A DNA stretch of 33,786 nt from positions 1 through 33,786 of the IMG/VR virus record IMGVR_UViG_3300003690_001752. One strand, written 5' to 3'. The DNA comes from a virus. Positions 11-31,875 of this stretch are shown in pieces. How positions within the stretch are numbered: the first letter of the stretch is position 1; every line of letters starts with the position of its first letter. The translations under genes and the position numbers were made by a program. The notes under the pieces were generated by a model. The model saw only the letters and a program-made list of their open reading frames with translations. It had not been told where the DNA came from and did not search any database.

Positions 11-130
11 ATGGTCGAGAAGGGCGAGTGCGTGGTCGTGGAGCAGGGCTTACCGACGGGCGTCGAGGGGTCCATCGGCTTCGGGCTGGGCCTTTGTTTG
101 GCGCTTCTCTGGGCGACGTTCTTCCGCTAG
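11..130 (+). CDS. Possible small membrane protein, or 3' end of a gene cut by the left edge
   Basis: This reading frame is open from the left edge and ends at a TAG. Its last 20 or so residues form a hydrophobic stretch rich in Gly, Leu, Phe and Ala (GFGLGLCLALLWATFF), which looks like one membrane segment. The first ATG gives 39 residues, but the frame is also open upstream of it, so the gene may begin outside the window. It overlaps the non-conserved, charged tail of the convergent cytosine methyltransferase. The rightward lysis genes at the other end of the window are also small membrane proteins, so this could belong to the same late operon if the molecule is circular or permuted. No family is recognised and the call rests on hydropathy alone. 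Confidence 0.35.
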   Translation: MVEKGECVVVEQGLPTGVEGSIGFGLGLCLALLWATFFR

Positions 131-1159
131 CTGCATAATGATGCGGCCGACGTGTTCGGCAACCTGCGGGCAGACCGCGTTGCCTAATCCTCGCAGTCGG
201 TCCACCCGGGCGGGAACCCCATGAGCCACTCGACCCACGTCGGGTTCAAGGCTCCACGTTCCTCCGGGGGGCGGCCATCCATGTTCACCACGCCAGCCAG
301 TTTCGATTTGGCCGCCACCTTCGCCCAGTCGACGTTCGCTCCGCTGTCCTTCCAGTCCCTTGCGTTGGGCGTGGGCCATGTAAGGCTCTGCCGGGCAGTC
401 GATGACATCGCCGCCGATGTCTCCTGGGCAGGCGCAGAGATCGAAGTGTCCGCCGCAGGCGTCGCACCATCGCTCGCCGCAGGCGTCGCACCACTGCTGG
501 CCGCCCCCCAGCTCGCCTTTGGCGGATCCTTCGGCCCCACCGCCTTGACGGCCACCGCTAGGGGCGTTGACCCGTACCGCCTGCGCCGGGCCCGCTCTGC
601 CAGCCCGGTCTGCCGCTTGCGAAACGACTCGGGCGTCTCCGTCAGGTTGAACACCCCGGCGTCGGGCGTCGGCCACAATGAAGATCCGGTCGCGCCGGTG
701 AGGGGCGCCGACGGCTTGCGCTGGGATACAGTCCCATTGAGCATCGAACCCGCACGCGGCCAACTCTCCGAGAACCGCTCCCATCCAGTCGGCTCTAGCA
801 AGCAACGCTGGAACGTTCTCCAGCAGGACGACGGGCCTCCTTGGTCGAACCAAGCGAACGACGCGCATGAGTTCCCAAAAGAGGCCGGATCGGGAGGCTT
901 TGATTCCGCCCTGTTTTCCTGCGACTGACAGGTCTTGGCAGGGGAACCCGCCGCAGACGAGATCGATCGGTCCGAGTCGCTCAAGGCCATCCTCCGTGAT
1001 CTTCGTTATGTCGCCCAGGTTCGGCACGTCGGGCCAATGCTTCGCCAGGACCCGGCTCGCGTAGGCGTCGACCTCCGACTGTCCGACGACGGTCATGCCG
1101 GCGCGCTCGAGGCCGAGGTCCAGGCCCCCGATCCCGCTGAATAGGGACAGGACCCTCAC
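50..1159 (-). CDS. C5-cytosine DNA methyltransferase with cysteine-rich insert
   Basis: The enzyme transfers a methyl group from S-adenosylmethionine to C5 of cytosine in DNA. For a phage the usual role is protection from host restriction. Motif I is LFSGIGGLDLGL near residues 6-17. Motif IV is GFPCQDLS with catalytic Cys74. Motif VI is ENV at 114-116, motif VIII is the APHRRDR segment around 152-158, and motif X is GLGNAV near the C-terminus. The target-recognition region is unusual: a Gly/Arg-rich linker leads into a tandem Cys pair repeat (WCDACGERWCDACGG) followed by CAC, probably a zinc knuckle. It starts with GTG, overlapping the upstream stop (GTGA). It is the last gene of the leftward operon. 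The final 27 residues are charged, not part of the fold, and overlap a possible rightward ORF. Confidence 0.93.
   Translation of the reverse strand: MRVLSLFSGIGGLDLGLERAGMTVVGQSEVDAYASRVLAKHWPDVPNLGDITKITEDGLERLGPIDLVCGGFPCQDLSVAGKQGGIKASRSGLFWELMRVVRLVRPRRPVVLLENVPALLARADWMGAVLGELAACGFDAQWDCIPAQAVGAPHRRDRIFIVADARRRGVQPDGDARVVSQAADRAGRAGPAQAVRVNAPSGGRQGGGAEGSAKGELGGGQQWCDACGERWCDACGGHFDLCACPGDIGGDVIDCPAEPYMAHAQRKGLEGQRSERRLGEGGGQIETGWRGEHGWPPPGGTWSLEPDVGRVAHGVPARVDRLRGLGNAVCPQVAEHVGRIIMQLAEERRPEKRQTKAQPEADGPLDARR
451..493. repeat. 19-bp direct repeat, period 24, encoding a doubled Cys-x-x-Cys knuckle
   Basis: Two identical 19-base copies (451-469 and 475-493) lie 24 bases apart, that is eight codons, inside the cytosine methyltransferase. 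On the coding strand each copy specifies W-C-D-A-C-G. The duplication is therefore in frame and doubles a putative zinc-binding element in the recognition domain. Confidence 0.85.
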
Positions 1160-1341: not shown

Positions 1342-1532
1342 CAGCAGTAGGCCCAGAAGTCCCGCTCGGCCTGGCGCTGCTCGGCCCGGCCCTCGTTGAT
1401 CTCGTCGCGCATCCGTTCGCGCTGGAACGCTGCAGCCTCGTCGTCCCGGTCCTGCCGGTCGTCTTGCTCGCGTTCTCGGCGGGCGACCTCGTCGGCGACG
1501 GCTTCCTCGGTTCGGAATCGTGGATCGCTCAT
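1341..1532 (-). CDS. Highly charged small helical hypothetical protein (63 aa)
   Basis: The protein is almost entirely Arg, Glu, Asp, Gln and Ala, consistent with one long charged helix or coiled coil ending in DFWAYC. The frame is open further upstream, but the ATG at 1532 sits in an ATGA junction with the stop of the preceding gene, so this start was chosen. The upstream extension is Arg/Pro-rich and is probably the neighbour read out of frame. No function is recognised. It may be a small regulator or an anti-host protein of the early operon. Confidence 0.65.
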   Translation of the reverse strand: MSDPRFRTEEAVADEVARREREQDDRQDRDDEAAAFQRERMRDEINEGRAEQRQAERDFWAYC

Positions 1533-1828
1533 ATCGGTCTTCTGTCGGCTGGGCCTGTCACGGCGACCCATCGGCCATTGATGAGTTGCGGGATCTCGCC
1601 TCGCAGGTCGAGGCGAACGCCGCACATGTCGCAGCAGTGGCAAGGCGGATCTTTTTTTGCTCGGCGCTGGCAGCGGATCTGGTCGGCGAATCGCCGCAGC
1701 ATTCGGCGGACGTTGTCCTTGACTCGCCTGCGGACGATATGCTGCGCCCGAGGGATCGACGAGATGACGGCGGCCAGTTCCTCGTCGACGACGAACGGTC
1801 TAGGTCTAGGTCTAGAACGGGATATCAT
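1529..1828 (-). CDS. Basic Cys-rich hypothetical protein (99 aa)
   Basis: After a short Arg-Pro repeat the protein has an Arg-rich helical stretch (around residues 30-55). This is followed by a cysteine cluster, CHCCDMCGVRLDL, that could bind a metal, and a short C-terminal beta-rich piece. The composition suggests a small nucleic-acid-binding protein, but no family is recognised. The ATG lies inside the last codons of the annealase gene, so the two genes share 17 bases. The stop overlaps the next ATG (ATGA). Position in the recombination operon suggests an accessory to DNA metabolism, which is inference. Confidence 0.65.
   Translation of the reverse strand: MISRSRPRPRPFVVDEELAAVISSIPRAQHIVRRRVKDNVRRMLRRFADQIRCQRRAKKDPPCHCCDMCGVRLDLRGEIPQLINGRWVAVTGPADRRPI
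1797..1814. repeat. Three tandem GGTCTA hexamers
   Basis: Three perfect 6-base copies lie at the overlap of the annealase 3' end and the next gene's 5' end. On the leftward coding strand they give the Arg-Pro repeat at the N-terminus of the 99-residue protein, so copy number could change without breaking frame. Confidence 0.8.
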
Positions 1829-2570
1829 CGTCGACGTCCTGCGTGGCGGGGGCGTGGGCGGGGGCGGGGGCGTTCGTCTTCTCGCCCTTCGTCAAAGACC
1901 ACCAACGCAGCGGGCGCGACCTCCCGTTCCATTCCTCGACGCATCCGCCGACGCACTCGAGATCGGGGGCGCGGCTGCTCGGGTCCCAGTAATGCTGCGT
2001 TCGCCCGCGCTCGCCGCACTTCGGACACTCTTGCTGCGAGCCTCCTGCGCCCTGGCCGACGTTCGGGTCCGGGGGCGGGGCGGTGTTCACCCGGGGCGCT
2101 CCGTTGTCCCTGGGGGCCTGCTGGGGCCCTTCGTCCGTGTACCTGTTCTCCTGATGCGTACCGAGCCAGATATCCGCGCTCATCCCGATTCGTGCGGCGC
2201 AGCTCATGACGGCGTCCGTCAAGGACTTCTTGGCGAATTCCTCGTCGGGGATGTAGCCGTCTCGACGCTTCATCAATACCGGCGTGCATCCGTACCCCTC
2301 GAACTGGCCGAGCTGGTCGTTCCAGCGGTACCAGAACCTGACCCGGCACCAGTGGATCGGCTGCTTCTCGCCGGCGATCCCATCGGCCAGGACCTCGTAC
2401 CCCCAGCCGATTCCGCAGGGGCCGAGGACTTCGGTCAGTCGCTTCGCCCTCCACATCGGATCGATGGCTGTCCCCTTGAAGCCGCCGCTGCGTTGAAATT
2501 CCTTGGTGTATGCCGGGTCGGTCTGCTCGAGGGACTGCCAGAGTTCGGTCGGGTCGGGGGTCATCGTCAT
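1812..2570 (-). CDS. Rad52/ERF-type single-strand annealing protein with zinc ribbon and SSB-like C-terminal tip
   Basis: This is probably the phage single-strand annealase, which pairs complementary single strands during recombination and repair. The N-terminal 150 or so residues carry the family-type core: a KRLTEVLGPCGIGWGYEV segment, aromatic-rich strands (FWYRWND), and the diagnostic helix DEEFAKKSLTDAVMSCAARI with GMSADIWLG after it. Next comes a Cys-x-x-Cys ... Cys-x3-Cys element (CPKCGERG and CVGGC), probably a zinc ribbon, then an Ala/Pro linker. The protein ends in DVDDDIPF. The last six residues are the same as the tip of E. coli SSB, which binds SSB-partner proteins. The start at 2570 was chosen because it forms an ATGA overlap with the Gp157-like gene. 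The 29 residues upstream in the same frame are not family-like. Confidence 0.82.
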   Translation of the reverse strand: MTMTPDPTELWQSLEQTDPAYTKEFQRSGGFKGTAIDPMWRAKRLTEVLGPCGIGWGYEVLADGIAGEKQPIHWCRVRFWYRWNDQLGQFEGYGCTPVLMKRRDGYIPDEEFAKKSLTDAVMSCAARIGMSADIWLGTHQENRYTDEGPQQAPRDNGAPRVNTAPPPDPNVGQGAGGSQQECPKCGERGRTQHYWDPSSRAPDLECVGGCVEEWNGRSRPLRWWSLTKGEKTNAPAPAHAPATQDVDDDIPF

Positions 2571-3055
2571 CGGATCCTCGCGTGGTACGTGGTAATCAGG
2601 GCGGCGCCCGGTACGTCGACGCCGGTCTTGAGGTAGGAGGCTATCGTCTGCTTGCACGGGCGGAAGGTGGCGGGGACTTCGACGACGAGGTCGTCAGTCA
2701 GCAGCTCGGCGTCGAGGATCTCGACCTTCGCCGACGACTGCAGGGTCGCCGAATGCAGGTCTCCGTCGAGGCGCTTGACGTCGTGCGCCTGCATCGCTTC
2801 GACGAGGCGCAGCTTCATGCGGTCGAGGCTGGCCCGGATGGCGTTGCGCCGCGCCTTGAGTCGGTCCAGCTCGTCCGTGATCGCCTTGTCCCGTGCGGCC
2901 AGGTCGGCGGCGACTCGCCCGTATGCGTCGATCTTCGACGGGATAAGCTCGGTCAGGTAGGCGTCGAGGATCGCTTCGGCTTCGCCCTCGTCGATCCCGT
3001 GGTCGCCTTCGAGGACGGACACGCCTGCGAGCAGGTTGTAAAGCGAGGCGCTCAT
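2567..3055 (-). CDS. Siphovirus Gp157-like protein
   Basis: The 162-residue protein matches the Gp157 family layout. It has an acidic helical N-terminus (MSASLYNLLAGV... then EAEAILDAYL), a long central coiled coil with repeated Lys/Arg/Leu (LDRLKARRNAIRASLDRMK), and a C-terminal half of short strands ending in the family-like IASYLKTGVDVPGAALI. The family is usually found beside annealases and SSBs in phage recombination blocks, as here. Its biochemical role is not settled. The frame is open a long way upstream, but the ATG at 3055 overlaps the preceding stop (ATGA) and starts the family-like sequence, so that start is used. Confidence 0.82.
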   Translation of the reverse strand: MSASLYNLLAGVSVLEGDHGIDEGEAEAILDAYLTELIPSKIDAYGRVAADLAARDKAITDELDRLKARRNAIRASLDRMKLRLVEAMQAHDVKRLDGDLHSATLQSSAKVEILDAELLTDDLVVEVPATFRPCKQTIASYLKTGVDVPGAALITTYHARIR

Positions 3056-3501: not shown

Positions 3502-3708
3502 TTAGAAGTAGGGGTTTAGCTTCGCCTCGCGAGCAAAGTTGGCCGTCGCATCCTGCCAGCCTCGCCGCCACCACTGAGCCTTCAGAAATTCCGAATCGGT
3601 TTTGTCGGATGAATCGTGCGGGCAGGCGTCGAGCGGCGCACCTTCGATTGCGGCGACATAGCCTGCGGCGATCATGCGCTCTTTGGTGGGGATGGTATTG
3701 CGGGTCAT
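3502..3708 (-). CDS. Ribosome modulation factor (RMF)-like small protein
   Basis: The 68-residue protein carries the RMF-type pattern: a Gly-Tyr-x-Ala-Ala start of a helix (AAGYVAAIEG), then Ala-Cys-Pro, then a charged spacer, then WWRRGWQDATANF, which matches the family's W-x-x-G-W-x-x-A ending. E. coli RMF is 55 residues, folds into two helices, and drives 70S ribosomes into inactive 100S dimers. Whether this copy binds ribosomes is inference from the pattern. An upstream ATG at 3738 is in frame but has no ribosome site. The ATG at 3708 has GGAG seven bases upstream and is preferred. It is the first gene leftward of the divergent control region, so it should be expressed very early. Confidence 0.66.
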   Translation of the reverse strand: MTRNTIPTKERMIAAGYVAAIEGAPLDACPHDSSDKTDSEFLKAQWWRRGWQDATANFAREAKLNPYF

Positions 3709-3768
3709 CGTCGTCTCCGTGTTGTGCGTCGTGTTCATGAGTAGGACGGTAGACCAGACCCGGACGGA

Positions 3769-3836: not shown

Positions 3837-4049
3837 ATGAAGATCCAAGAACTATTCGCGTCGCGACTGCGGTCAGAAATGAGCCGCCGGGGCGTCAGGC
3901 TGTCGGACCTGGCCGCCGAGCTGGGGGTCTCCGTCAACTCGGTCTCGAACTGGCGACGGGGTCAGGCGCTGCCGACCATCCCCCGCCTGGTCGAGATTGC
4001 CGACCAGCTCGACGTGACGACCGACTGGCTGCTCGGACTCGAGCCTTGA
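3837..4049 (+). CDS. Cro/XRE-type HTH transcriptional regulator
   Basis: This 70-residue single-domain protein has the HTH_3 signature: SDLAAELGVSVNSVSNWRRGQALPTIPRLVEIADQLDVTTDWLL. Helices 2 and 3 (residues about 21-40) form the helix-turn-helix, and Ser-x-x-Ser-Asn-Trp lies in the recognition helix. The size and lack of a C-terminal cleavage domain suggest a Cro-like or minimal repressor rather than a LexA/CI type. The ATG at 3837 was chosen because the upstream extension would begin inside the hairpin region and adds non-homologous residues. It probably binds the adjacent 19-bp palindrome and controls both early operons. The next gene's TTG start overlaps its stop. Confidence 0.88.
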   Translation: MKIQELFASRLRSEMSRRGVRLSDLAAELGVSVNSVSNWRRGQALPTIPRLVEIADQLDVTTDWLLGLEP

Positions 4050-4450
4050 GTTGGACCGTCGTCGTCGAAGGCGTCCCCGTGGCGCAGCCCCGCCCCCGCG
4101 TCTACGGGACGCACACCGTCAGCGACAGCAAGAAGTCGAAGGCGTGGAAGGACGAGGTCGCCTGGGCCTGGGGCGCCGGGCCGAAGTACGACGGGCCGGT
4201 CTGTCTGCGCCTGATTTTCTTCCTTCCCAGGCCGAAGCGGCTGCTGCGGAAGAAGGACCCGGACAAGGCGATCCCCGCGCCCGTGCGCCCGGACGTGGAC
4301 AACTTGGCGAAGGCTGTCCTCGATGCGCTCGAGGGTCTGGCATACGACAACGATTCGCAGGTCATCGCCCTCGACCTCCGCAAGCTGTACCCCGGGAAGT
4401 CGGAGCCGCCGGGCGTGCTGATCCAGGCGATCGCATGGGAGGACGTATGA
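4046..4450 (+). CDS. rusA: RusA-family Holliday junction resolvase
   Basis: RusA enzymes cut four-way DNA junctions as dimers in the presence of magnesium. The core signature is clear: PVAQPRPRV near residue 11, then RPDVDNLAKAVLDALEGLAYDND with acidic residues Asp83, Asp85 and Asp101/Asp103, corresponding to the essential aspartates of E. coli RusA. The length of 134 residues is close to the family norm of about 120. The start is TTG at 4046, in a TTGA junction with the repressor stop. No ATG or GTG lies before the conserved strand, and the same TTGA coupling recurs in two late genes. It probably works with the annealase of the leftward operon in phage recombination. Confidence 0.92.
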   Translation: MSWTVVVEGVPVAQPRPRVYGTHTVSDSKKSKAWKDEVAWAWGAGPKYDGPVCLRLIFFLPRPKRLLRKKDPDKAIPAPVRPDVDNLAKAVLDALEGLAYDNDSQVIALDLRKLYPGKSEPPGVLIQAIAWEDV

Positions 4451-4941: not shown

Positions 4942-5162
4942 CCGAGGACGCCTCCGCCGTCATGTCGACGCTTGGGATTCGTCGCGGGCTGTCGCTGCAT
5001 CAACTGGCCCGCGAGCTCCGATGGTCGAGACCCGGGGCGGACGCCCCGACCAAGGCGTTCGACACTCATCGCGTATGGCGAGCGGTGTCATCGCTGCGTA
5101 TGGCCGGCTTTATCGAGGAACGCGTAAGCGTCGCGGGTTCGCGCTGGAAGGTGGTCCGATGA
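4938..5162 (+). CDS. Small winged-helix-like DNA-binding protein (74 aa)
   Basis: The sequence reads as a compact winged helix: GLSLHQLARELRW as helix 2, a recognition-helix region around HRVWRAVSSLRMAGFI, and a terminal hairpin ERVSVAGSRWKVVR. This resembles the bottom half of MarR- or replication-type winged helices. No precise family is recognised. It is coupled on both sides by ATGA junctions, between the GNAT-fold protein and the methyltransferase, so it may regulate this block or act with the methyltransferase. Both roles are inference. Confidence 0.62.
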   Translation: MTEDASAVMSTLGIRRGLSLHQLARELRWSRPGADAPTKAFDTHRVWRAVSSLRMAGFIEERVSVAGSRWKVVR

Positions 5163-5199
5163 AAAGGGGCGGCGACCTCGACCCTATAGCCCGACCCCC
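5156..5199. repeat. 44-bp direct repeat, left copy (methyltransferase 5' end)
   Basis: This 44-base stretch matches 6295-6338 at 37 of 44 positions. It includes the identical 13-base start CCGATGAAAAGGG and a CTATAGCC block at the same distance from the ATG. Together the copies bracket the methyltransferase gene from start codon to stop codon. Confidence 0.88.
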
Positions 5200-6301
5200 G
5201 GCGCCCCGTAACGTCTGCCTCGTCGGCGACGCGGCCGAGCAGCTCGCCACGCTACCGGCGGGGATCGTTCAGACTTGCGCCACGTCGCCGCCCTATTGGG
5301 GGCTGCGTGACTATGGCACGGGATCATGGTCGGGTGGCGACACCGACTGTGATCACGCCGCGCCGCCGACAGGAGGGAGAAAGAAGGGATCTACGCTCTC
5401 TGGCTCTGGCAATCGCGAGGGCTTCAGCGCGGACGGTCAGTTCAAGAGTGTTTGCGGGATTTGCGGGGCCCGCCGCACGGACAGCCAACTCGGGCTTGAG
5501 TCCACGCCGGATGAGTACGTCGCCCGGATGGTCGAGGTGTTCCGCGAGGTGCGGCGGGTGTTGCGGGACGACGGGACGCTTTGGCTCAACCTCGGGGACA
5601 GTTACAACGGGTCAAGCGGGAGCGGGGGCGACACGCCGAAGCAGTCTACCAACGTCGGCAGCTTTCACGATGGGGGGATTCGTCGAGCCCCCGGCCTCAA
5701 GCCCAAGGATCTAGTCGGCATCCCGTGGCGCGTCGCCTTCGCCCTACAGGCCGACGGCTGGTATCTGCGCTCGGACATCATCTGGCACAAGCCGAACCCG
5801 ATGCCCGAGAGCGTGACCGACCGGCCCACGTCGGCGCATGAGCACGTGTTCCTCCTGTCGAAGTCGGCCCGCTACTACTACGACGCCGACTCCATCAGGG
5901 AGCACACGGAACACGTCGGCGCCACATGGGAGGACCGGCAGGCTATGGGGTTCCGGGGCGACACGAAGCACCCTACAAGGGATGCGATCGAATCTGGGAT
6001 GTCGATTCCTTCGTTCGCGGCGAACAAGAACGGCCGCAACCGCCGCTCCGTCTGGACCGTCGCCACCCGCCCCTACGCCGAAGCGCACTTCGCCTGCTGG
6101 CCCCCGAAGCTCGTCGCCCCGATGATCCAGGCCGGCAGCAAACCGGGCGACCTTGTCCTCGACCCCTTCATGGGATCCGGCACCACAGCCCAAGTCGCCC
6201 AGGATCTCGGCCGGGACTGGATCGGCGTCGAGCTGAACCCGGACTACATCAAACTGCAGGACAAACGAACGGCGCAGCTATCCCTGATGGGTCTCCGATG
6301 A
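5159..6301 (+). CDS. Beta-class DNA N4-cytosine/N6-adenine methyltransferase with metal-binding insert
   Basis: The enzyme methylates an exocyclic amine in DNA using S-adenosylmethionine. The catalytic motif IV, TSPPYWGLRDYG, lies at residues 42-53. The SPPY form is common in N4-cytosine enzymes but also occurs in N6-adenine ones, so the target base is undecided. Motif I, DPFMGSGTT, is at 335-343, followed by DWIGVELNPDY. This order (IV before I) defines the beta class. Between motif IV and the next helix sits an insert with Cys64/His66 and Cys99/Cys102 (VCGICG), probably a zinc site. The ATG at 5159 overlaps the previous stop (ATGA). The frame is open upstream but unrelated. The whole gene is flanked by 44-bp direct repeats, suggesting that it was gained as a cassette. 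Confidence 0.92.
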   Translation: MKRGGDLDPIARPPAPRNVCLVGDAAEQLATLPAGIVQTCATSPPYWGLRDYGTGSWSGGDTDCDHAAPPTGGRKKGSTLSGSGNREGFSADGQFKSVCGICGARRTDSQLGLESTPDEYVARMVEVFREVRRVLRDDGTLWLNLGDSYNGSSGSGGDTPKQSTNVGSFHDGGIRRAPGLKPKDLVGIPWRVAFALQADGWYLRSDIIWHKPNPMPESVTDRPTSAHEHVFLLSKSARYYYDADSIREHTEHVGATWEDRQAMGFRGDTKHPTRDAIESGMSIPSFAANKNGRNRRSVWTVATRPYAEAHFACWPPKLVAPMIQAGSKPGDLVLDPFMGSGTTAQVAQDLGRDWIGVELNPDYIKLQDKRTAQLSLMGLR

Positions 6302-25659: not shown

Positions 25660-28600
25660 ATGGCGTCCTATGAGGACATAACGGATCCCCTGGAGGGCGG
25701 GCTGTCGGTCGAGCCCGACCCGGATCCCCTGGCGTCGGAACCCCTAGCGTCGGAACCCGAGCCGCTGATGTCGGAGGCGGAACCCGAGCCGCTGATGTCC
25801 GTCCCAGAACCCGAGCCCGTTGTCATCGGGGCCGGGGAGGAAGAACCTACCGTCGCCCTCGAGGCGCGACCCCCGGATCCCGTCGACGTTTCACGCCTTC
25901 CCTGGTGGAGCCTGCCGACCACTGGGGAGGATCTGGTCTTTGTCGAGTCCGTCGGAGGCGGTCTCCGCACGATCAGGCCGACCGGGCCGCGCATCGACCC
26001 GAGGATCGACATCGCCGAGGTCCCTGATTCGGTGCGCCCTATGCTGCATTCCTTGCGATACAAGCGGCGCGCAGATGCAGCGATCAAGAGCATCCGAGGA
26101 ATGCAGAACGCCGGCGAGGACTTCGACCAGCTCAAGGCGGAAAGGCCGGAAGTGTTCCGGGTTACGATGGACTCGATCACGGATCACGTCACCGAGACGG
26201 TCAGCAAGACGAAGCCCGTCGAGATCGTTCGCCGCCTGGTCTCTCTGAACGCGAACGCCCGCGGGGCGCTTTGGGGCGTAGCGAAGGCCGGCGGCGCTGC
26301 TCTCGAGGACCTCATCGGTCCGTTGGTCATGCCTGAGACCCTGGTCGGAGACCCGGACGAGCGGGCCTTCGAGTCCGCCATCGGGGAAGCCTACGGAATG
26401 ACCGAGGCCGATCTGGAGAAGATGGTCGCGCAGTCTGAGGAACTGGGCGGATATGGTCGGCTCGAGAACTGGAGGCGTGACGTCGACGAGAACGTCATGG
26501 GAATGGTCGGCCTCGTCGAGTTCGCGATGGGCCAGGCTAAAGAAGATGTCTTGATGCACGGCGACCTCGTCGACCTGTTCAAGTCTCAATTCCAGTCGGG
26601 ATCGCAGTTTACTGAGAAGTTCGTCGGCGGAATGATCGGCGGGTCTGCGGCGCTTGTTCGTCATCTTCCGACTGCGCTGGCGAATCGTCCCATGACGACG
26701 ATGATGATGATCCTTCCGATTCTCAAGGCGGTCAGGGCCCGGGGAATGGTCCCCGATCGTCTCGGGAACATCATCAACGCGACTGATGAGTTCGCCACGA
26801 TGCAAACCCGAGACATGGCGACGACGGTCAAGCTGGTCCCCTATATTGCGACTCGGGCGCTGCGAGACGTCCTGATCTCGGGGAAGCTCAAGACGAGCCT
26901 GCGGGGCGTTCCGGGGGAGGTCGGCCGATCTGCGCGTCGATCCTTGGCCGAGGTCGAAGGCGCATTATCTGCGGGCGAGGCGACGACCGTCCTACCCGCC
27001 GAATGGGGAGCGGCGCTTCAACGCTGGATCACGTCGAAGCGTTATCAGGACGACATGACGGTCCAGCAGATCGCCGACCTGGTCGACGTGGATCCTGGGG
27101 CAGCCCGTGCGGAGATCGAAGCGATAGCGGGGGAGCTGGCCCGAGCTACGGAGCGGGGCGACCTCACGGCGGAAGCCTTCATGGTTCCTCCAGAGGCGAT
27201 GCGCGTTCGGTCCCTGGACGAGCTGCGGGGCGAGTTGCCCGGGGCGGCGAAGGCGGCGGTCCCCGAGGCGGCGGCGGGCGAGGTCTTTCTGCATGGAACG
27301 TCTAAACGTTTCGGATCTTTTCAGCCGCAGCGTGAAGGTCATGGGCTGTTTTATCTATCACCCCCGAGTCGCAGCCCTGGGCGGAAGACGCAGGCCGAAC
27401 ACATCGCCGGAGGACCATTCGGCGGCGAGCTTGCAGAGGTCTACATCGACAGAAGCAGGGTCAAGGAGTTCAACCCGATCGACGACCCGATTGCCGCTGA
27501 CATTGTTCGGACAGTTATCGCAGAAGTGAATCCGCCTGAAATCGTTGCGAAGCGGGCCCTCGGAGACCTGATCCCCTATCAATGGGCCCACCGGATCAAA
27601 GAACTAGCGGACAAGCACGGCTATAACGTTTTCGAGTTCGACGAGGCGTCAGTCCAGGGAAAAAGCATAGCGGTAAGCGACCCCACACTTCTAACGATAA
27701 AAGGATGGCGAGATCCTCCATTCGACAAACCGACCCCTGCTGTCGGGGCGGCGAAGGCGGCGGTCCCCGAGGCGGCGGCGGCGGTCCCTGAGGCGGCGGT
27801 CGAGATACTGACGCCCCGAGAGCGCAACGTCATGCGGGAGACCTTTTCGGTCGCCCCCGACGATCCGCGCTTCGACAAGGGGAAGCCGATCGCCGGCATC
27901 CCTGAGAAGCGACAGCGCGACATCGTCCAGACATCGCTGTCGGAGGTCATCCCAGAAGGGGCGACGCTGTTCCACGAGACCGACGCAGCTTCGGCTCAGA
28001 AGATTCTCGCCCGCACGGAGGAAGGACCGCGCCGACATGGCGACGTATACGTCAGCGACGACATCGACCTCGCGCTCGGCCAGGGCGGGAAGGGCGTCGT
28101 CCTCGAGTTCGATCCCCGCCTGGTCAATGGGACCGTCGCCCCGAAGGCCGGGGTCATGTTCGTCGAAGGCGGCGGCCGGGAGTATGTCGTCAATACCTCG
28201 GTCCCCGGATCTGTCGTGTCGATCACGGTCCCGTCCGAGCGGGCGATTGCTTCGCTTCGCAAGGTCGAAGGCTTGGCCGACCTGTTCGACTTCGACGGGG
28301 CGCAAAGTGTCGAGCGAGGGATCCGAATCGAACGCAGGAAGCGCCGCGACGTTCCGCCGCCGCCGATCCATCCGCCCGCAGCCGCCGCCCCCGTAGCACC
28401 GGCGTCCGCCCTCGAGCGTTACCGCCACTTCCGCGACGAGATCCTCGAGTCGGCAATGCCGGGCGAGGAGATCAAACTGCTAGCGGCCGAACTGCGGGAC
28501 GAGCTCGCCCAGGCCGCACGCGCTCCGATGGATCCGCCTGACGTCGTCCCGTTCGAGCTTGGTATGGCGCACCTTGACGCCGTCATCCGGGGCGTCGACC

Positions 28601-31600
28601 CGTCGGCGTTCGGGCCTGCGTATCCGTCTATGGGATCGAAGGTCGTCATCGAACTGGAGTCGATGGTCGATCCGACGGGGAAGATTCACCCGATGGGGAT
28701 CTCGACCGATACGGCAGCGATGATGACGCTGATGGAGGACCAGCCGGCGCTCGTCGAAGCTGCTCGCCCCATGATGCTGCTGACGGAGGACCAGATAGCG
28801 AAGGCCCGACAGGCGGGCATCATGGACGACGTCGACGCCCTGCGAGACCTGGCGAGCGTAGCGACCGATCCGCCGATGTCTCCGTCCATCCTGCAGGACG
28901 TTCAGGCGCTATCAGAAGCGCAGCCGATCGATGTAAAGCCCCGGGAGATGGTCCCCGACTTGTCTGCGCCGATCTTCGCCGACCTGCTCGACCCAGTGCT
29001 GGACTACATCCAAGAAGCCTACCCGACGGCGGCGGCGATTCCCGATGTCCCCTATGAAGGCGTCCGACTGCTGCAGGAGTTTCAGACAGCATCGCAGGGG
29101 GCGCAGCTCACGAGAAGCCGGGCGGCGACAATCCTGACCAATTCCCTGCTCGACAAGTCGGCGCAGCATCTTCGAGATCCGAAGCATCGAAGCCGTGTCG
29201 CAAAGCGGATCGCTGCAGGGCGCCCGGGGGTTACCGTGCGGGGCGTCGAGTTCAAGCTGAAGGAGCTGGCCGAATCGACGCTGCTCGACGACGCCATCGA
29301 TTATCGCCTGACCATTGAAGGGGAGTCGGTCTCGTTCCTCGACGAAGCGTTCGCAGCCTTCGACGACCTCCCCGGGAAGGAGCGCCGACGCGTCAAGGCG
29401 GACACGCTGCGCCAGGTCGGGACGGTCATCGCCGCCGATGTCGAGGCGCACAAGATCAAAGCCGCAATGATGAACGAGGTACGCCGCGGGCAGGAACTCG
29501 GTCCAGTCGGAAAGCCCGGGATCTTCGCGGCGAATCTTGTCGAGTCGGTTCTAGTCAAGGGAGAAGCGCCGCCGCAGTTGCCGTCTCGCTTCAATCCGAG
29601 GGACATCGCCGGGCATATCCGCGTCGACGCCGACAAGCTGATCCCGAACCTCGTCAAGAAGCTCGACATCGAGCCGACGATGGCCCGAGACATGCTGCTA
29701 GACTTCGCCGACGAATATCAGTTCGGCTATACGGCCCCGCGTCCCGAGCTGACTCGCAAACTTCCGAAGTCGTCGATCGCAATGGGCGAGGCCGCCTATC
29801 AGCGTGGGGCCCTGATCGCCGAAGGAGACCTGGCGCCCATCGTCAGGGCGGTCGGGAAGGGATACGAGGAGACGGTCGGGTGGGGACTGCAGGCGACCTC
29901 GTTCAGAGAGTCGGCGGTCAAATTGTGGCGCAAGCTGTCGGGCGTCATAAAGGGATCTCTGACCGTCAACAATCTCCCGGCTCACAAGAACAACTGGTTG
30001 GCGAACGTCGGAATGGTCGGGCTGGTCAGAGGGAAGACGCCCTTCGGCGTGGTCGCAGACCTCAAGGCGTCCGGGTCGTTGTGGAAGCAGTACCGCGAAG
30101 GGAAGTTGACGGACCCGGAACTTATTGCCGACTTCCGAGCCATCGAGCAGTCGGGACTTCTGGACACGTCGCTAGTCGACTTCGAGCTGGCCGGCCTGGA
30201 CCCAAGCGAAACGCCGGGACCGCTCAAGGCGTTCGAGCAGAAGGTATCCGCGCCGGCGTACAAGTTCGGGGACAATATCTTCAAGCTCGACGAGGCGCTC
30301 CGAAACATGCGGATCCTTCGTGAGATCGACCGAACGCTCGCCCCGGGCGAATGGATGCGCCTCGAGCTCGACGGTAAGCGGGTCACTTGGCTGACGAAGG
30401 ACGAGGCGGGTCAGTGGATGCAGACGACCACGCAGCCCAAGCGCAGCCCGGGATCGAACCTCCACATCATGAAGGGACCCGACGCTGCAAAGTATTGGAA
30501 GGAGGTCACGCCGCGGCAGGTCGACAGACTGTTTGCGACGGCCGCAGGAAAGACGGCTAAGGCTAAATTCTTCGACTATTCGGACGTTCCGATCTGGCTG
30601 GAATACCTGCGATCCAGTGGAGCGGGCGGCATCGTCTCGCCCTTCCTGACGTGGTCATGGAAATCCTTGGACATTCCCGGGATCAAGCGCGGACTTCTGA
30701 CAGAGGTCGCGACTGGCGACTTTGCCGTCGCCCCGTTGACGAATTCCTCCGTCGTGAATGGTCAGGCGATGGCGGCCGCCGTCGCGGTAAGCCTTCGGCG
30801 GGCGGCGCTGATGGGCGGACTTCGTTCTTCTCTGCTGACTGACGATCCGACGCAACTGCGCGAGGCGCTCACCTGGCTACCCTCCGACCAGAAAACGATG
30901 TTGGTCGAGGAAGGAACAAACCCGGGGTATCTGCGAGTCATGAACCTGAGAGGTCCGAACTTCACGGGAACGTCGGACACGCTGTTCCGTCTCGGGCTGG
31001 CGGCATATTACAAGGCGGCGCAGCAGCTCGATCCTGACTGGTCGGACGACCGCCTGTTCCCGCTCGACGCATCACGGGCCGAGATCCTCGACGTCGACGC
31101 CATCATCAAGAAGCGAAAGGTCACGCCAGAGGCGGCGCGGGACATCGTCAGGCGTCGAAAGATCGCCCTAAAACTCAAGGGTGGGGCCATCGCTTCGGCC
31201 CAGGACGTTCTTAATCTGGCGGGGATGGCCGGTTCCCCATTCATGGACGCGCTAGCCTCCTACCGGGAGACGGACTTCAAGGGTCAGGAGGTCACTGCGG
31301 CGAGGATGTTTTCGGAGTTCTCGACGATGCTGGTCGGCGGAACTCCTGCGACGGCTACATCGATCATGATGGCGATGAGAGACGAGACGACGCCCTGGTC
31401 GACGCGGCGTTACGCCATCAAGGCCGACACTCGACTGACCGAGGACTTTGCGCGATGGGCGACGCGTCGCCTTTTGGGCTGGGGCTGGCGCGATGTCAAC
31501 GGGATCGAAGCGAAGAAGAAATGGGCGGACAAGATCGAGAAGGCGCTGAAAGGATCCCTGACGAGGGACCTCGAGGATCGCGTCAAGCGTCGAGAGTCCG

Positions 31601-31875
31601 CATTCAGGGCAGCGGTGGACGCCGGCGACATCGAAGCCCGTCGAGCTGCCGAACTGGGCGATGAGTTCAAGGGGATCAAGCCCTTACCGGAAGAACGCGC
31701 CCGACTCGACCAGCTCAATGGGTTCATCGCCGACGAGGTCGAGCGGGCGGTCGCCGACTATACGACCGTCATGGAGAGAATCTCCGAGAAGCAAAGGAAA
31801 CGCCGGAAGCCTCCCGTCCGGGTGCTCTTGGATGGGGAGCCCACGGGGATACAATTCGACCGATCATCACCATAG
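25660..31875 (+). CDS. Giant multidomain internal virion (polyvalent) protein with two ART-fold modules
   Basis: This single 2071-residue protein is the largest in the window. It starts with an acidic Pro-Glu repeat region (residues 10-70). A hydrophobic stretch, TMMMILPILKAV, lies near 345-356. Residues about 542-690 resemble an ADP-ribosyltransferase-fold module: FLHGTS at 543-548, GLFYLS, EVYID and a late GYNVFEFDE. A second module at about 768-890 has LFHETDAASAQKIL, VYVSDD, VLEFDP and EYVVNTSVPGSVVSI. Such folds occur in phage polyvalent proteins injected with DNA. The C-terminal half has FDYSDVPIWLEYLRSSGAGG followed by FLTWSWKSL near 1638-1670, like the conserved end segments of other giant phage proteins. 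No transglycosylase or polymerase motif was found. ART activity is not proven. Confidence 0.78.
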   Translation: MASYEDITDPLEGGLSVEPDPDPLASEPLASEPEPLMSEAEPEPLMSVPEPEPVVIGAGEEEPTVALEARPPDPVDVSRLPWWSLPTTGEDLVFVESVGGGLRTIRPTGPRIDPRIDIAEVPDSVRPMLHSLRYKRRADAAIKSIRGMQNAGEDFDQLKAERPEVFRVTMDSITDHVTETVSKTKPVEIVRRLVSLNANARGALWGVAKAGGAALEDLIGPLVMPETLVGDPDERAFESAIGEAYGMTEADLEKMVAQSEELGGYGRLENWRRDVDENVMGMVGLVEFAMGQAKEDVLMHGDLVDLFKSQFQSGSQFTEKFVGGMIGGSAALVRHLPTALANRPMTTMMMILPILKAVRARGMVPDRLGNIINATDEFATMQTRDMATTVKLVPYIATRALRDVLISGKLKTSLRGVPGEVGRSARRSLAEVEGALSAGEATTVLPAEWGAALQRWITSKRYQDDMTVQQIADLVDVDPGAARAEIEAIAGELARATERGDLTAEAFMVPPEAMRVRSLDELRGELPGAAKAAVPEAAAGEVFLHGTSKRFGSFQPQREGHGLFYLSPPSRSPGRKTQAEHIAGGPFGGELAEVYIDRSRVKEFNPIDDPIAADIVRTVIAEVNPPEIVAKRALGDLIPYQWAHRIKELADKHGYNVFEFDEASVQGKSIAVSDPTLLTIKGWRDPPFDKPTPAVGAAKAAVPEAAAAVPEAAVEILTPRERNVMRETFSVAPDDPRFDKGKPIAGIPEKRQRDIVQTSLSEVIPEGATLFHETDAASAQKILARTEEGPRRHGDVYVSDDIDLALGQGGKGVVLEFDPRLVNGTVAPKAGVMFVEGGGREYVVNTSVPGSVVSITVPSERAIASLRKVEGLADLFDFDGAQSVERGIRIERRKRRDVPPPPIHPPAAAAPVAPASALERYRHFRDEILESAMPGEEIKLLAAELRDELAQAARAPMDPPDVVPFELGMAHLDAVIRGVDPSAFGPAYPSMGSKVVIELESMVDPTGKIHPMGISTDTAAMMTLMEDQPALVEAARPMMLLTEDQIAKARQAGIMDDVDALRDLASVATDPPMSPSILQDVQALSEAQPIDVKPREMVPDLSAPIFADLLDPVLDYIQEAYPTAAAIPDVPYEGVRLLQEFQTASQGAQLTRSRAATILTNSLLDKSAQHLRDPKHRSRVAKRIAAGRPGVTVRGVEFKLKELAESTLLDDAIDYRLTIEGESVSFLDEAFAAFDDLPGKERRRVKADTLRQVGTVIAADVEAHKIKAAMMNEVRRGQELGPVGKPGIFAANLVESVLVKGEAPPQLPSRFNPRDIAGHIRVDADKLIPNLVKKLDIEPTMARDMLLDFADEYQFGYTAPRPELTRKLPKSSIAMGEAAYQRGALIAEGDLAPIVRAVGKGYEETVGWGLQATSFRESAVKLWRKLSGVIKGSLTVNNLPAHKNNWLANVGMVGLVRGKTPFGVVADLKASGSLWKQYREGKLTDPELIADFRAIEQSGLLDTSLVDFELAGLDPSETPGPLKAFEQKVSAPAYKFGDNIFKLDEALRNMRILREIDRTLAPGEWMRLELDGKRVTWLTKDEAGQWMQTTTQPKRSPGSNLHIMKGPDAAKYWKEVTPRQVDRLFATAAGKTAKAKFFDYSDVPIWLEYLRSSGAGGIVSPFLTWSWKSLDIPGIKRGLLTEVATGDFAVAPLTNSSVVNGQAMAAAVAVSLRRAALMGGLRSSLLTDDPTQLREALTWLPSDQKTMLVEEGTNPGYLRVMNLRGPNFTGTSDTLFRLGLAAYYKAAQQLDPDWSDDRLFPLDASRAEILDVDAIIKKRKVTPEAARDIVRRRKIALKLKGGAIASAQDVLNLAGMAGSPFMDALASYRETDFKGQEVTAARMFSEFSTMLVGGTPATATSIMMAMRDETTPWSTRRYAIKADTRLTEDFARWATRRLLGWGWRDVNGIEAKKKWADKIEKALKGSLTRDLEDRVKRRESAFRAAVDAGDIEARRAAELGDEFKGIKPLPEERARLDQLNGFIADEVERAVADYTTVMERISEKQRKRRKPPVRVLLDGEPTGIQFDRSSP
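25751..25799. repeat. 22-bp direct repeat, period 27, in the giant protein N-terminus
   Basis: Two identical 22-base copies (25751-25772 and 25778-25799) encode the Pro-Glu-Pro-Leu-Met-Ser nonapeptide repeat. The period is nine codons, so copy number can vary without changing frame. Shorter related units precede it. Confidence 0.85.
27241..27277. repeat. 37-bp direct repeat, left copy (before first ART module)
   Basis: This copy is identical over 37 bases to 27745-27781. It encodes an Ala/Pro linker, GAAKAAVPEAAA. The two copies start 504 bases apart, exactly 168 codons, so the segment between could be lost or gained in frame by recombination. Confidence 0.92.
27745..27781. repeat. 37-bp direct repeat, right copy (after first ART module)
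   Basis: This is the second identical copy of the linker repeat. A further partial copy follows it (GCGGTCCCTGAGGCGGCGGTC), extending the linker before the second ART-like module. Confidence 0.92.

Follow-up and report, generated by a model that had tools for sequence, protein, structure and literature searches.

The window that we analyzed is the whole of a linear virus record (IMG/VR IMGVR_UViG_3300003690_001752; 33,786 bases), which lacks a terminal repeat and might be a fragment. On its minus strand, an open reading frame (ORF) of 252 codons at 2570..1812 starts with ATG, stops with TAG and encodes a protein reading MTMTPDPTELW...TQDVDDDIPF, which the ORF, a match to phrog_7838 and an AlphaFold2 model of its core together identify as a Rad52-fold single-strand annealing protein. 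The mechanically longest version of this ORF begins at a GTG at 2657, but this codon falls inside the upstream gene, whereas the ATG at 2570 leaves an overlap of 4 nt with it, and the ATG is therefore the favored start. The upstream neighbor (2567..3055, minus strand) is a Sipho_Gp157 gene (PF05565, E 1e-21), as it is for many homologues of the annealase. GC3 is high both in the core of the annealase (0.85) and in its C-terminal third (0.87; 0.86 overall), which shows that the reading frame is genuine over its full length. The only further recombination gene recognized in the window encodes a RusA-like Holliday junction resolvase (4049..4450, plus strand; PF05866, E 3.5e-21). No exonuclease was found among the window ORFs scanned, the record being perhaps incomplete, so that such a gene could lie outside it. 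Two DNA methyltransferases (50-1159, minus strand; 5156-6301, plus strand), one of the C5-cytosine and one of the N4/N6 type, flank the recombination region, and a small gene at 3502-3738 (minus strand) matches ribosome modulation factor (PF04957, E 2e-9). Behind the structural genes lies an ORF of 2071 aa (25660-31875, plus strand), the first 1000 residues of which have no PHROG match.

As for the core of the annealase (residues 1-147; 2130..2570, minus strand), it is conserved in 99 homologues and was modeled with pLDDT >90 over most of its length by AlphaFold2, using 62 homologues. The protein matches phrog_7838 (E 6e-42) and phrog_7792, while no Pfam family, including Rad52 and ERF (PF04404), matches it at E ≤ 1. 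When the profile of the 62 homologues was compared with the PDB, the best nine matches were all RAD52 chains, the match being weak (E 0.017). The modeled core displays the Rad52 β-sheet/β-hairpin annealase fold: human RAD52 accounts for each of the 11 Foldseek matches at E ≤ 0.001 (E 1e-6 to 2.5e-4), and VIA-align gave Z scores of 12.5 for RAD52, 11.5 for Mgm101, 9.5 for Sak of phage 80alpha and 5.3 for Redbeta. Since the modeled fold matches RAD52, Mgm101 and Sak, the annealase is, by predicted fold, of the Rad52/Sak type. A reading made from the DNA letters alone (hereafter, the sequence-only reading) had called it Rad52/ERF-like; the Rad52 part of this label agrees with the fold matches, while the ERF part has to be dropped for want of a PF04404 match. 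Two other identities were considered and rejected. The protein is not an SSB, its core having a Rad52 fold rather than an OB-fold and no PF00436 match, and it is not an exonuclease, as its relatives are labeled in PHROGs and RefSeq, the model showing a Rad52 fold. The "exonuclease" label, found in phrog_7838 and on RefSeq records that include NC_006552 (F116p19), NC_020858 and NC_020488, is probably wrong for the Rad52-fold core. It has probably spread, we infer, from long fusions like ZF40 gp07, the ZF40 and BUCT708 relatives being 711-722 aa long with a large additional N-terminal part. We found no paper describing this Rad52-fold family (phrog_7838) among the open-licence literature.

After residue 147, the protein is predicted to be disordered. 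This part begins its recognizable features with a zinc-ribbon-like motif, CPKC-x20-C-x3-C (residues 182-210; 1941..2027, minus strand), formed by C182, C185, C206 and C210 and weakly similar, by profile comparison, to the ERF zinc module. There follow an Ala/Pro-containing linker (residues 211-244; 1839..1940, minus strand; NAPAPAHAPATQ), predicted to be disordered with pLDDT of about 45-50, and the SSB-type C-terminal tip DVDDDIPF (1815..1838, minus strand), in which DDDIPF itself occupies 1815-1832 and is encoded by GAC GAT GAT ATC CCG TTC (1832-1815). In the AlphaFold2 model, tip and linker have pLDDT of about 42-49 and do not dock on the core. The DDDIPF-coding site is the single one in the window, and none arose in 100 dinucleotide shuffles. 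The last six residues of Escherichia coli SSB are DDDIPF (PMC4118853). Both the zinc ribbon with its Ala/Pro linker and the identity of the last six residues with the E. coli SSB tip, which had been reported in the sequence-only reading, are thus borne out by the ORF and its codons, and the annealase has the arrangement seen in SSB, an amphipathic acidic DDDIPF at the extreme C-terminus preceded by a disordered linker.

The annealase family does not share the tip. DDIPF-like ends are absent from all 99 annealase homologues (0/19 from isolate phages or plasmids, 0/80 from IMG/VR), and the tip is therefore confined to the window annealase's own lineage. The sequence-only reading had taken random C-termini among homologues to speak against a docking role, and at the level of the family this is what we found, although not at the level of the lineage. 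The annealase sits on a long terminal branch (1.28) without close kin, the best core identity among the homologues being about 45%. A single-protein scan of viral contigs confirmed no relatives, the pattern EFAKKSLTDA, used for the nearest kin, returned three stretches, none of which resembled the query at the C-terminus in tblastn, and no phage record matched the C-terminal half alone. Sister phages L221-L224, reached via the terminase and showing 79-85% DNA identity over long stretches, stop short of the annealase gene. The sole homologues with C-terminal CxxC motifs are the VvAW1-like members, in which the pattern differs from that of the window protein.

The absence of the tip from 99 homologues favors an explanation by chance or decay, in which the acidic end is a functionless coincidence or remnant, possibly shaped by the start of an overlapping gene. 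Such a gene may exist: a possible next gene of 99 aa (1529..1828, minus strand) overlaps the annealase by 17 nt, its ATG (1828-1826) lies within the tip codons, as the sequence-only reading had pointed out, and a Shine-Dalgarno-like AGGA (1840-1837) sits 8 nt upstream of this ATG in the annealase tail, so that the two signals overlap the Q-D-V-D-D-D codons. As a real gene it is weakly supported by its sequence. It finds no match in Pfam, in PHROGs or by tblastn against phages, and its GC3, 0.69, is below that of the annealase (0.86), Gp157 (0.88) and RusA (0.90). The double constraint on the tip DNA that had been claimed from this overlap is therefore valid only if the next gene is real; the overlap stands, while the gene behind it has no homologues and a lower GC3. 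We rejected the overlapping start as an explanation of the tip, since its frame (ATG ATA TCC CGT TCT) does not dictate I-P-F; the overlap constrains at most some codons and leaves these three residues free.

Other evidence also argues against coincidence. All six residues (6/6) match SSB, and in the viral collection DDDIPF followed by a stop occurs in at least 120 stretches with TAR and at least 120 with TGA, whereas a permuted control using the same codons, D-I-D-P-D-F-stop, has no match in that collection. Of the 1,203 ORFs of 100 aa or more in the homologue loci, 5 end exactly in DDDIPF, and the tip-bearing ORFs listed from these loci encode SSB-like proteins or small ones made of a linker and the tip; the annealase is not among them. 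DDDIPF is also found independently on ERF annealases, as described below. From these comparisons, it seems unlikely that the annealase acquired DDDIPF by chance, and we consider a functionless end of either kind, coincidental or decaying, quite improbable. The tip is probably a real docking tag that has evolved repeatedly.

Among the matches listed, most proteins ending in DDDIPF look like SSBs or small ssDNA-binding-like proteins, and two are ERF annealases, L115 (PF04404, 4e-27) and L350 (PF04404, 9e-17). In L115, an ERF core is followed by a four-Cys ribbon (CPECG...APDFKC...C), a Pro-rich linker and DDDIPF, while L350 has the DDDIPF end without a ribbon. Search patterns from L115 that excluded the tip retrieved 32 viral loci, 20 of which encode exact DDDIPF with synonymous codon changes (GAC/GAT, ATC/ATT, TAG/TAA); remoter relatives (48-64% identical) end in DEIPF, DSTPF or GFPF. 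This shows that selection has kept the tip in at least one annealase lineage. DDDIPF is nevertheless not ERF-wide, since it is absent from four ERFs of isolated phages (Dulcita, prophiGD54-2, Silence and Pq0). A search of genome contigs using the ERF protein as query gave just two partial, unrelated-looking matches. The proposal of the sequence-only reading that an SSB-type tip recruits SSB partners or competes for them hence gains from the same tip on two ERF lineages and loses from the 0/99 homologues.

The zinc motifs of the window annealase and L115 have C-P-x-C and A-P-D-[FL]-x-C in common. Aligned by hhalign with the ERF zinc module, the window protein scored 26.7 (prob 49) vs 23.9 for the best of 100 shuffles that preserved the Cys residues and the tip. 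This is suggestive of homology between the two motifs, and it is possible that a C-terminal module is shared by, or was exchanged between, the window annealase and L115. A match of Stenotrophomonas phage Sonora to the ERF zinc module was discarded, as the annotated genes are on the other strand.

The same end occurs on phage proteins that are not annealases. Six SF2 helicases end in DDDIPF (L133, L167, L171, L175, L343 and L347), and probably two more (L318 and L320); they have ResIII/Helicase_C, several with a UPF0547 zinc motif, in a RadD-like layout. E. coli RadD binds the SSB tip, and in these tip-bearing RadD-like helicases, too, the polarity of receptor and ligand looks reversed. Pam3_Gp34-like proteins (PF23977) also end in DDDIPF (L111 and L306 by test, L129 and L325 by resemblance). 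The Gp157 gene of the window has a weak match to DUF7307, a Pam3 gp33-like family, and tip-bearing proteins may often have genes of the Gp157/gp33 type as partners.

Where could the tip have come from? In 7 of the 99 homologue loci (L031, L042, L050, L056, L062, L065 and L075), the start of a tip-bearing SSB-like gene falls at -4 to +64 nt relative to the annealase stop, and in five additional loci such a gene lies farther away. An SSB recognizable by PF00436 is present in 18 of the 50 annealase-family records, and Firmicutes phages commonly pair erf and ssb (PMC8093625). Since tip-bearing SSB genes lie directly behind the annealase in several relatives, the most likely source is a neighboring ssb. 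A fused or transplanted SSB tail is plausible on these grounds, and it would have arisen either when the two genes fused in frame and the OB-fold was lost, or through recombination with the 3' end of ssb. No PF00436 SSB is found anywhere in the window, a linear record and maybe a fragment, outside which an ssb could lie. Among the ERF contigs, a PF00436 SSB is seen on 0 of 12 with a DDDIPF annealase vs 4 of 7 with a variant tip (hypergeometric about 0.009), a contrast that is only a hint, the contigs being related to one another as well as incomplete. Nor is a PF00436 gene seen on the contigs examined for L350, the Pam3_Gp34-like proteins and the helicases, several of these contigs being short fragments.

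We propose that the C-terminus of the annealase is a genuine SSB-Ct docking peptide, the core sitting on ssDNA while the tail docks, and so recruits or captures, host SSB-binding proteins; we give this reading an even chance of being correct, the job of the tail being what we infer. As judged from fold and family, the core would assemble on single-stranded phage DNA and anneal it, and each oligomer would display DDDIPF several times over on its flexible zinc-ribbon/Ala-Pro tails. The tip could then serve as a dock for host proteins that possess an SSB-Ct pocket (RecO, RecJ, exonuclease I, RecQ, RadD, PriA, DnaG and others). In this way, the host machinery for repair and replication restart would act on annealase-coated DNA with no need of host SSB, for whose docking partners the annealase might compete successfully.

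The chief rival to this, which we rate as unlikely, is that the tip acts within the annealase itself. It would fold back or bind a neighboring subunit, in the DNA-binding groove or at a site that reads SSB-Ct, and so regulate ssDNA binding or ring assembly, replacing the signal that a cognate SSB gives in trans. The tip-bearing SSB genes that adjoin the annealase in several relatives are in line with this, as are the stimulation of Sak4 annealing by the SSB tail of phage HK620 (PMC5928155) and the requirement for K253, in the C-terminal domain of Redbeta, in SSB binding (PMC8303780). However, tip and linker were modeled as disordered and undocked from the core (pLDDT about 42-49), and we identified no pocket for SSB-Ct on the core.

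A different use of the same docking would be titration, the tip sequestering host SSB partners as a form of counter-defense and keeping RecO, RecJ, exonuclease I or SSB-sensing defenses off phage ssDNA. The docking chemistry is the same and implies it, an early protein made in abundance and ending in a free DDDIPF would compete with SSB, and the nearby Gp157 gene, Gam-like by its PHROG label, hints at a nuclease-control cassette. However, titration alone has no need of a tip that is carried by an oligomer binding ssDNA, and the return of the tip on other proteins that process ssDNA (ERF annealases, SF2 helicases) fits recruitment at DNA better. We therefore hold titration to be very improbable.

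The docking reading can be widened. It is conceivable, and in our estimate somewhat short of an even bet, that the SSB tip has been grafted onto phage annealases time and again (in at least one Rad52-type lineage and two ERF lineages), often on contigs where no ssb is seen, making of the annealase an SSB-like hub that recruits or steals host SSB-dependent repair enzymes, the tip in the present case having come from an annealase-ssb gene pair. Annealases, SSB tips and the interaction between them are each already well known. An SSB tip built into an annealase and recurring across annealase families was not found in the open-licence literature, and the reversed polarity, the annealase bearing the tip rather than reading it, is the interesting part. 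In which hosts a phage annealase works is believed to hinge on how it reads the host SSB tail (PMC10711431, citing Filsinger 2021). An annealase with an SSB tail of its own would reverse this logic and could depend less on host SSB. If general, the SSB-Ct code would be a transferable tag on non-SSB phage proteins, invisible to current annotation, in which PHROGs and RefSeq give "exonuclease".

When compared with known systems, the window annealase is closest in core fold, size and Gp157/Gam-like neighborhood to the phage Sak/Rad52-type proteins (80alpha Sak; the F116, ZF40 and VvAW1 homologues; human RAD52), but it carries the DDIPF-like tip that 0/99 of these homologues have. With the ERF annealases of freshwater phages (the L115 lineage and L350) it shares the succession of annealase core, linker and DDDIPF, and with the L115 lineage also a C-terminal four-Cys ribbon containing APD[FL]xC, whereas the core family of the ERF proteins, PF04404, is a different one. 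Bacterial and phage SSBs resemble it in the last six residues behind a disordered linker and, if the annealase binds ssDNA as its family suggests, in that as well, but they have an OB-fold (PF00436), in place of which the window protein has an annealase core. Annealases of the Redbeta and RecT type read the SSB tip (PMC8303780, PMC10711431); in lambda Redbeta/RecT the annealase thus receives the tip, whereas the window annealase carries it, with polarity reversed. The SSB of phage HK620 uses its tail, NDYPPF, to bring the annealase Sak4 to ssDNA coated with SSB (PMC5928155), which shows that tip-mediated coupling of annealases is real biology. There, too, an SSB-type tail is coupled to an annealase and stimulates annealing; in contrast to the single protein of the window, however, tail and annealase in HK620 belong to two separate proteins, and Sak4 has a RecA-like fold.
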